A stretch of DNA of 64,000 nt from Gammaproteobacteria bacterium (lineage in GTDB: Bacteria; Pseudomonadota; Gammaproteobacteria; SZUA-229): the NCBI GenBank assembly GCA_013041745.1, contig JABDRN010000055.1, positions 1-64,000 on the forward strand, in the 5' to 3' direction. Both the position numbers and the translations under genes were made by a program. This document shows positions 716 to 20,144 of the stretch, piece by piece. The notes below the pieces were generated by a model. That model ran no database searches, was not told where the DNA came from, and was given only the letters and a program-made list of their open reading frames with translations. How positions within the stretch are numbered: position 1 is the stretch's first letter; each line of letters opens with the position of its first letter.

Positions 716-745
716 CTTATTTATTTGGTCGGGATAGCAGGATTT
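716..745 (-). repeat. Partial copy of tRNA-Pro 3' end
   Basis: These 30 bases repeat exactly at 899-928. They contain the last part of tRNA-Pro (T-arm and acceptor 3' strand, the CCA, and about 10 downstream bases). The fragment lacks the anticodon and 5' half, so it cannot be a tRNA. It lies 183 bp from the full gene and abuts the IS end. Confidence 0.85.
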
Positions 746-898
746 ATGAAATACATCCATGTATTTCACCCTTCGGGCCGGCTTTCTCAAAAACAGAAAC
801 CCGTTAAAAATGGCATCATGCCATTTTTCATGAACCTGTACGCTTTAACGAACAAGTCCTTCCAGACAAATAAATAAGCCACCTCGTTTTTGAGGTGG
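746..898 (-). mobile_element. Hairpin-rich insert between tRNA-Pro and its 3' fragment
   Basis: This 153-bp segment separates the complete tRNA-Pro from its duplicated 3' end. It has no convincing ORF. It contains a palindrome at 747-768 (TGAAATACATCCATGTATTT), the adjoining CCCTTCGGGCC, a second hairpin at about 806-828 (AAAATGGCATCATGCCATTT) and the tRNA terminator arm. The first palindrome with CCCGAAGGGTGAA recurs next to tRNA-Ser, and a related palindrome lies next to tRNA-Val. That it is a small mobile element is inference. Confidence 0.45.
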
Positions 899-985: not shown

Positions 986-1200
986 AAAGGCGCATAGGTT
1001 ACACGAAAGTATTTTAATTCGAAACTATCCCGTAGATATATTCAGTTTTAGAGCCGGACCTCAGCCAAGTATCTCCACAATATATTTAAGTGTTTATCTC
1101 TGAAAATCGCGGAACAAGATTCCGCTCCCATAAGAAATATGCAGTAAAGGAGCGGACCAGTAAAAATAACCTGGTGTTACGCGATTGCTTTAACAGGAAT

Positions 1201-8772: not shown

Positions 8773-8935
8773 GAAATTCAGGTATTAAATAGACTATGTT
8801 ATGGTGACGCTACAGCTTCCTCGGCAATTGCTCCTGCATTGCTCTACCTAACTACATCCATGTAGTCGTGCCTCCGCTTAAATTCAAGCTTCGTCCCGGC
8901 CAGACTCCCGTCTGGCGTTCGCAGCTCCTTGCCCG
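8773..8935 (-). mobile_element. Hairpin-rich insert between tRNA-Val and its 5' fragment
   Basis: This 163-bp segment lies immediately upstream of tRNA-Val on its strand. No ORF is convincing. It contains the palindrome ACTACATCCATGTAGT (8851-8866), close to the one at tRNA-Pro, and further hairpins such as CCAGACTCCCGTCTGG and GGCAATTGCTCCTGCATTGC. Size and composition resemble the inserts at tRNA-Pro and tRNA-Ser. The mobile-element reading is inference. Confidence 0.4.
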
Positions 8936-8962
8936 CCGCTCACCCAACTGAGCTATGCGCCT
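8936..8962 (-). repeat. Partial copy of tRNA-Val 5' end
   Basis: On the minus strand the first 19 bases, AGGCGCATAGCTCAGTTGG, match the 5' end of tRNA-Val exactly and then diverge within the D-arm (GTGAGCGG against TTAGAGCG). The copy starts 190 bp from the full gene and lacks an anticodon arm, so it is not a functional tRNA. Confidence 0.85.
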
Positions 8963-18670: not shown

Positions 18671-18783
18671 GTAACCTGCCCCAGCCGCACCTCGGCACCC
18701 GAGATCACTGCTACCGTTGCTTCCTTCCGGACCTGGCGGGGTTCACAGCTTATCGTCGCGAGGGAACCAGAACAGGTCACCAT
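18671..18783 (-). ncRNA. ffs: 4.5S signal recognition particle RNA
   Basis: The minus strand contains the SRP Alu-less core CAGGTCCGGAAGGAAGCA with the Ffh-binding tetraloop. The ends pair as GGTGACCTG/CAGGTTACC, which sets the approximate boundaries. Its position just upstream of dnaX is conserved. It directs Ffh to signal sequences for cotranslational membrane targeting. Confidence 0.93.
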
Positions 18784-18930: not shown

Positions 18931-19860
18931 ATGAAATCTACCTTACGTATAGCAACACGAAAAAGCCCACTCGCGCTATGGCAGGCGGAACATGTGAAGT
19001 CGCAATTAATGAAAGCGCATCAGGGCCTCGAGGTAGAGCTGGTAACATTCACCACCAAAGGTGACAAAATTCTCGATACGCCATTAGCCAAGATCGGCGG
19101 TAAAGGCCTGTTCGTCAAGGAACTTGAAGCGGCGATGCTCGACGGTCAGGCCGATATCGCGGCACATTCGATCAAAGACATACCGATGGAATTTCCAGAG
19201 GGGCTATTCCTCTCCACTATCCTGGAGCGTGAAGAACCCTGTGATGCATTCGTCTCGAACACATATGACAGCGTGCAGAACCTGCCAGAAGGTGCCGTGG
19301 TCGGTACCTGCAGTTTACGCAGGAAATGCCAGCTTTTAAGCAAGCGCCCCGATCTGAAGATCAAAGATCTGCGCGGCAACGTTAATTCGAGACTGGAAAA
19401 ACTTGATAACGCTGATTATGATGCCATCATACTGGCCTGTGCCGGACTGGTCAGACTTGAGATGGCCGACCGGATCAAACAGCGCATATCATCTTCATGG
19501 ATACTTCCTGCCGTCGGTCAGGGTGCTGTCGGGCTGGAAGCACGCAAAGGCGATGATGAGACACTCGAACTGCTGTCCGTGTTGAATCATGATGATACAG
19601 CTGACCGCGTCACCGCAGAACGTGCATTGAACAAACGCCTCGAAGGTGGCTGCCAGGTACCGATAGCAAGTTATGCCATGCTAGACGGTGATACCTTGCA
19701 CCTGCAGGCACTGGTCGGCGAACCGGACGGCAGCAAGATCATCGCAGGTGATATCAGCGGTCATCGCAGCGAGGCTGAACAACTCGGCACCAGGCTGGCA
19801 GATGACCTGCTGTCGCGTGGCGCTAAAGAAATTCTGGAAAAATTATACAGCGAGCAATAA
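18931..19860 (+). CDS. hemC: Porphobilinogen deaminase (hydroxymethylbilane synthase)
   Basis: This 309-aa enzyme joins four porphobilinogens into hydroxymethylbilane in haem synthesis. The N-terminal [20 protein letters not shown], the substrate loop [15 protein letters not shown] and the cofactor cysteine in [12 protein letters not shown] are all present. Length is normal. It is divergent from ffs, and a partial tRNA-Ser copy starts 18 bases after its stop. No hemD follows here, unlike in enterobacteria. Confidence 0.98.
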
Positions 19861-19878
19861 AATCCAGTCACAAACATT

Positions 19879-19900
19879 AGAGAGGTGGCCGAGCGGCTGA
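19879..19900 (+). repeat. Partial copy of tRNA-Ser 5' end
   Basis: AGAGAGGTGGCCGAGCGG repeats the acceptor and D-arm of the full tRNA-Ser 178 bp downstream, with one difference soon after (CTGA against TTGA). No anticodon arm follows, so it is a fragment. Confidence 0.88.
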
Positions 19901-20056
19901 CTAAAATTGCCTGGAGCAATTTTGAACATAATCGACGTTTTTTCGATTATGACCCGAAGGGTGAAGTACAGGAAGTACTGAGTGACGAGCACGCTGCGTG
20001 CGGCTTGGCTCATATAAAAAAGGAATATAGTGTAATAGCATAATTTACAAATTTAT
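19901..20056 (+). mobile_element. Hairpin-rich insert between tRNA-Ser fragment and tRNA-Ser
   Basis: This 156-bp segment is full of hairpins: AAAATTGCCTGGAGCAATTTT, CATAATCGA..TCGATTATG, AGTACAGGAAGTACT (19965-19979) and GCACGCTGCGTGC. CCCGAAGGGTGAAGTACA is nearly the same as the motif next to tRNA-Pro. It has no ORF. It looks like a member of the same short element family; this is inference. Confidence 0.45.
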
Positions 20057-20144
20057 AGAGAGGTGGCCGAGCGGTTGAAGGCGCACGCCTGGAAAGTGTG
20101 TAAACCGAAAGGTTTCGAGGGTTCGAATCCCTTCCTCTCTGCCA
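20057..20144 (+). tRNA. tRNA-Ser (anticodon GGA)
   Basis: This is an 88-nt class II tRNA with encoded CCA. The acceptor is AGAGAGG/CCTCTCT, and the anticodon stem CACGC/GTGTG around CTGGAAA gives anticodon GGA. The variable arm is ACCGAAAGGT and the T-arm GGGTTCGAATCCC. Its first 18 bases are repeated at 19879. Confidence 0.95.

Follow-up and report, generated by a model that had tools for sequence, protein, structure and literature searches.

An intact tRNA-Ser(GGA) gene occupies positions 20057 to 20144 (forward strand) of the window, by which we mean the whole stretch of 64,000 nts analyzed here (ARAGORN; Rfam RF00005, 54.6 bits). The upstream gene, hemC, ends at 19860, and a second copy of the tRNA start, AGAGAGGTGGCCGAGCGG, begins 18 nts further on at 19879 and equals the first 18 nts of tRNA-Ser(GGA) with no mismatch, as an earlier note on this DNA had claimed. 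Together with the preceding T, the exact copy is 19 nts long (19878 to 19896; blastn E 6e-5 within the window), and it extends to 22 nts (AGAGAGGTGGCCGAGCGGcTGA) when one mismatch is allowed. The complete piece (19878 to 19900, forward strand, 22/23 match) thus comprises tRNA positions 1 to 22 plus one upstream T, and it stops in the D-loop at CTGA^. At this point an inserted element of 84 nts with four hairpins, hereafter the core, is found (19901 to 19984, forward strand; CTAAAATTG...CTGAGTG), the next base, A, being host sequence. It was recognized by a covariance model (R1, described below) and sibling comparison, and its ends were set by comparing the uninterrupted host sequences of sibling copies. 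Past the insertion the tRNA copy resumes (19985 to 19994, forward strand), with ACGAGCACGC compared to AGGCGCACGC at tRNA positions 23 to 32; this resumption was compared in the window and in the loci L058, L059, L061, L065, L066, and L068. The core ends 72 nts upstream of the intact tRNA gene, and the spacer between the exact copy and that gene measures 160 nts instead of the 156 bp given earlier. The tRNA copy is the target that holds the element and not a component of it.

The four consecutive hairpins previously proposed for this spacer are reproduced by RNAfold, with a z-score of -2.9 to -3.4 relative to dinucleotide shuffles. On the forward strand, hairpin H1 (19902 to 19924) has 9 bp, all of which covary across the family, and the loop CTGGA, a GGA loop; H2 (19927 to 19951) has 9 bp, supported by covariation, and a variable loop; H3 (19952 to 19962) is ACCC-GAA-GGGT with a GNA triloop, a motif that the earlier note had flagged; and H4 (19965 to 19979) is AGTAC-AGGAA-GTACT, which includes CAGGAAG, a GGA loop similar to the CsrB repeat. 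All four sit inside a long closing stem predicted by RNAfold, whose 5' strand (19880 to 19898) is the tRNA-Ser copy and whose 3' strand (19988 to 20011, forward strand) includes a degenerate reverse complement of that copy. Across the family, 106 of 118 H1 loops and 104 of 117 H4 loops retain the GGA while the stems vary freely, and the GNA triloop of H3 is present in 91 of 118 members. Double changes were observed at all 22 pairs, with 95.5% of cells paired among 80 distinct rows, values that none of 500 shuffles reached; these figures are somewhat inflated, as the alignment was fitted to R1 and related rows are non-independent. Covariation at 22/22 pairs rules out a chance fold. The share of G.U among the stem pairs of the core is 1.0-1.7%, versus 5.3% for 84 tRNAs (acceptor and T stems), and this rarity suggests that the folding may matter at the level of DNA.

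R1 is a covariance model of the four hairpins trained on seven units from this genome, i.e., that of the window and six siblings. The window core scores 80.2 bits (E 1.5e-15 genome-wide), a value that is high by construction because this core is a training sequence. The strongest test against chance is that, of 369 sampled gammaproteobacterial genomes, 145 contain this structure according to the model (E up to 1e-4). The spacer proved an excellent search seed, as had been proposed. At 1e-5, matches were also obtained in 57 of 299 genomes sampled from the phylum, including other classes, the two samples overlapping partly. In the genome of the window itself, 28 matches were found with E below 0.02. 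Ten of them lie within 400 nts of an annotated tRNA gene, a zone that makes up 0.8% of the genome (p 9e-15, binomial test). Adding a pseudo-tRNA unit and the two partial tRNA-Ser units found at a contig end raises the count to 13. The p-value is descriptive, because seven of the ten tRNA-linked matches are training units. Training on tRNA-linked units also favors such units among the top matches of the model. The covariance search suggested before thus confirmed the clustering at tRNA genes, but approximately half of the matches in this genome, and most of those in some others, lie elsewhere, in REP-like palindromes, MITEs, other repeats, and protein genes. The picture of a structured spacer linked to tRNA genes holds as far as the clustering goes and is too narrow in view of these repeats and protein genes, and a tRNA-specific structured spacer was rejected since half of the R1 matches lie elsewhere.

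A scan for copies of the tRNA genes over the whole assembly (138 contigs totaling 2.97 Mb, with 34 tRNA matches above the cut-off) revealed partial copies at a shift of 128 to 347 nts. Copies of 3' ends lie downstream of the genes for tRNA-Phe (two, with an antisense insert), Pro-GGG, Pro-UGG, Asp, Gln, and Met, and copies of 5' ends lie upstream of Ser-GGA and Val-GAC. Within the window, a sibling core (745 to 829, reverse strand; R1 75.1 bits, also a training sequence) sits in the duplicated 3' end of tRNA-Pro(GGG), where a 30-nt exact copy of the tRNA end and flank, AAATCCTGCTATCCCGACCAAATAAATAAG, is found 183 nts downstream of the original (716 to 745, reverse strand). The near repetition of the spacer sequence beside tRNA-Pro noted earlier corresponds to CCCGAAGGGTGAAGTACA, which recurs with 17 of 18 nts at 760 to 777 (reverse strand). 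A 19-nt copy of the 5' end of tRNA-Val(GAC) is located 190 nts upstream of that gene (8944 to 8962, reverse strand); its spacer contains other GGA hairpins and no R1 match. A separate observation is a second GGA-hairpin module, GTAGAGCAATGCAGGAGCAATTGCCGAGG, which occurs at 8819 to 8847 of the window (reverse strand), at 10 places in this genome, and within the tRNA-Val and tRNA-Pro(UGG) units. At another locus (L039), a 36-nt copy of the tRNA-Met 3' part lies 128 nts downstream of tRNA-Met (1501 to 1577), and its spacer likewise has no R1 match. Two tandem tRNA-Ser-like 5'-end units, cut by a contig end, are located downstream of a csrA-like gene (L002, 1501 to 1751; genome G000, contig C35).

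The insertion site is precise. Over 112 distinct sites, the target reads G (74%), A (95%) ^ A (89%), T (46%), where one A common to element and target leaves the exact break uncertain by one base and the normalization of the start assumes that A. No target duplication was detected at these 112 sites, and the core has no terminal inverted repeats. Both empty and occupied forms of a target coexist in the same genome: AGAGTACCCAGA^AAAGGCCGCC is present uninterrupted as well as with a core exactly at the caret, and so is GTAGGAGCGGA^ATCTTGTTCCGC. The window contains one host repeat in its empty form, a REP-like palindrome without insertion (1106 to 1131, reverse strand; matched to the pattern with 2 mismatches). 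Where the unit copies a tRNA 3' end, the core is flanked by GGTTCGA^ATCC, which is the T-loop, while in the tRNA-Ser 5' units it lies at CTGA^A in the D-loop and the tRNA copy resumes afterwards. In the Phe and Leu units, the core is in the antisense strand of the T-arm at GGA^AT. Long copies of tRNA-Val, Arg, Ser, and Gln elsewhere are split at the same place of the T-loop, and in G011, a member of the same genus with 104-110 copies, two tandem cores interrupt the T-loop of a full-length tRNA-Arg copy. That the element entered tRNAs at the RNA level is disfavored because antisense T-arm insertions and insertions in non-tRNA DNA both exist. Protein genes are also hosts: in G148, six cores lie in frame within a nuoG-like gene, and cores are translated in frame in PglZ-domain and helicase genes of one cluster (L319, 782 to 5034). 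In two further genomes, G134 and G259, cores are carried inside larger repeats of ~324 and ~200 bp, respectively, so that movement of the core itself does not account for every copy.

Comparison of the tRNA-Ser gene downstream of hemC in relatives revealed the unit in different states. L062 and L064 are without it, L059, L066, and L068 have one unit, and L065 has two in tandem. In L065 and L068, the homologous 5' copies show no differences from their own tRNA-Ser; over eight copies, the tRNA piece tends to resemble the tRNA from its own genome (mean of 1.4 versus 3.3 mismatches), and it has decayed in L058 and L061.

Because of the tandem units, the antisense T-arm insertions, and the in-frame cores in protein genes, the feature looks like a mobile DNA element rather than a tRNA-specific RNA. 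Judged from these sequence patterns, it is quite probably a discrete mobile element of ~70-85 nts with four hairpins, which here entered a tRNA-Ser(GGA) copy at CTGA^A within the D-loop, and we infer that it moves as a unit. Such an element would use GA^A as its target in REP palindromes, MITEs, further repeats, ORFs, and T-loops of either strand (sense or antisense), and the simplest origin of tandem arrays would be that new copies insert at the end of an existing one. A needed tRNA would tolerate insertion only with an intact copy left, so that tRNA sites show a duplicated piece and dispensable palindromes a clean insertion. The neighboring intact tRNA would be retained as the cell needs it, whereas the interrupted piece would decay like a pseudogene and the folding of the insert would be preserved. 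Two routes may lead to this arrangement, namely tandem duplication with independent insertion, or a single event with a long duplication. Duplication is the likely origin of the tRNA piece itself. It is very improbable that the whole unit arose simply through tandem duplication on the spot and slippage at short repeats, with hairpins that are fortuitous; the copies do adjoin intact tRNA genes, the duplications reach into the flanks, and tandem arrays occur, but the same core with independently covarying stems is found in unrelated hosts throughout the class.

If the element is mobile, its hairpins probably act as DNA during mobilization. A Y1 HUH transposase (IS200/IS605 or RAYT type) working on single-stranded DNA is a possible but rather doubtful mobilizer. 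Hairpins, the absence of terminal inverted repeats and target duplications, and the invasion of palindrome loops all agree with it, the low G.U share and the GNA triloop of H3 would suit single-strand DNA folding, and Y1_Tnp is present in 73% of the positive genomes versus 53% (odds ratio 2.4, p 1e-4, uncorrected for genome size and phylogeny). On the other hand, Y1_Tnp went undetected in 39 of the 145 positive genomes, the left flank does not consist of one constant tetranucleotide, and no obvious replication-strand bias was seen in the complete genome G148, as judged by eye from positions and GC skew in a genome where many copies ride in other repeats. The search for a mobilizing gene found none, the presence of Y1_Tnp being weakly associated.

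Several known systems resemble the putative mobile element in part. IS200/IS605-derived elements share with the core the lack of terminal inverted repeats and of target duplication, and the position of hairpins inside the ends. RAYT-associated REP sequences consist of a GTAG tetranucleotide and, after it, a single imperfect palindrome that forms a hairpin. The core is, like REP/BIME sequences, short, dispersed, palindromic, and mostly intergenic, but it has four hairpins and no GTAG at its base and hence falls outside the REP definition; REP-like palindromes are here the hosts that the core interrupts. Rickettsia palindromic elements are tiny folding elements inserted even in genes. They and the mitochondrial double-hairpin elements are comparable to the core in being tiny, folded, non-coding on their own, and found within genes, but they belong to other lineages and the likeness is one of form, the core having four hairpins with loops of the GGA and GNA kinds and GA^A as its target. 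Among mitochondrial repetitive or double-hairpin elements, none with flanking duplications has been reported for Allomyces (PMC2800124).

A link that the earlier note had missed is that to the rtT or tRNA-linked repeats (TLRs) of E. coli. These, which include rtT/RttR (Rfam RF00391) and rrA, rrB, and rrF, were recognized as early as 1978, and there is still no agreement on their origin or function (Egan and Landy 1978 and Rudd 1999, as summarised in PMC8144298). There are 22 of them at ten loci, ending in 18-19 bp identical to the end of the upstream tRNA or rRNA gene (PMC8144298), and rtT-like sequences also occur in enterobacterial BIMEs (PMC2965389). Although R1 was built without any E. coli sequence, it matches all four tyrT repeats (20-30 bits) and rrB (63.6 bits), so that rtT and rrB have the same core. 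The rrB core is located between T1 and T2 of E. coli rrnB (L334, 240 to 313) and sits in a copy of the 3' end of 5S. The rrnB T1-T2 stretch serves as a terminator in many expression vectors. The window unit adjoins an intact tRNA gene, as TLRs adjoin genes of a tRNA or rRNA operon, and its four-hairpin core is homologous to theirs; in both TLRs and this family, the core occupies a GA^A site within the duplicated end of a stable-RNA gene, beside the intact gene. The window unit is not a strict TLR, because its copy is the 5' end of the downstream gene: it lies upstream with the core in the D-loop, a mirror-image, 5'-linked variant, whereas the Gln, Asp, and Pro siblings do end in 18-19 bp of the 3' end of the upstream gene. 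Unlike TLRs, the family in this genome is also found outside stable-RNA genes. The Rfam model RtT (RF00391) has no match on the window unit, and its matches in this genome, at Gln (36.2 bits) and Asp (30.2 and 22.5 bits), are all under the 45-bit gathering cut-off; RtT was the sole relevant family in a loose-threshold general Rfam scan. The E. coli tRNA-linked repeats thus look like one manifestation of the four-hairpin element, and TLRs can be resolved into a target (the duplicated tRNA or 5S piece) and an insert (the four-hairpin core with its own precise target), a split that makes the questions of mobility and of CsrA directly testable.

Such repeats might instead act as RNA. The CsrB repeat motif is CAGGA(U/C/A)G in a hairpin loop. 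H4 resembles it, with GGA in the loop, and the core differs from CsrB/RsmZ-type sRNAs in having two GGA loops per core and in being embedded in repeats. A functional leader or processing RNA in the pre-tRNA-Ser transcript, for sRNA release, CsrA titration, or control of processing, is a role of the kind considered earlier for the E. coli repeats; it is compatible with mobility, and we regard it as tentative and somewhat unlikely. The retention of the GGA loops despite varying stems argues for it, as do the Northern bands obtained from RtT candidates at Actinobacillus tRNA genes (PMC4986893) and the finding that E. coli rrB is transcribed and binds Hfq and CsrA, the binding of CsrA in vitro being lost when three GGA motifs (1, 2, and 5) were mutated (PMC8144298). 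From the sequence, motifs 2 and 5 probably correspond to the H1 and H4 loops, and by analogy with rrB a transcript of the window unit would present a pair of GGA loops to which CsrA could bind. Against an RNA role, the unit is missing or decayed in close relatives, half of the cores lie away from stable-RNA genes, and the low G.U share better fits folding at the DNA level. In addition, the claim that a tyrT repeat has a role in starvation was later retracted, and of the E. coli tRNA-linked members, all 19 besides rrA, rrB, and rrF score below 0.01 as CsrA-binding RNAs (PMC8144298).

Returning to the mobile-element reading, a more speculative extension, to which we give a rather low probability, is that TLRs could be the visible corner of a minimal folded-DNA mobile family of Gammaproteobacteria and beyond, which would invade hairpin loops at GA^A, probably by single-strand-type recombination, form cassette-like tandem arrays, and act as CsrA decoys when transcribed together with stable RNAs.

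Other observations were made in the same genome. Several contigs terminate at tRNA genes or close to them. In an apparent tRNA-Leu(UAA) gene near tRNA-Cys (L031, 2006 to 2209), a group I intron was detected (RF00028, 63.2 bits), and the window carries a gene for the bacterial small SRP RNA at 18676 to 18772 on the reverse strand (RF00169, 68 bits).
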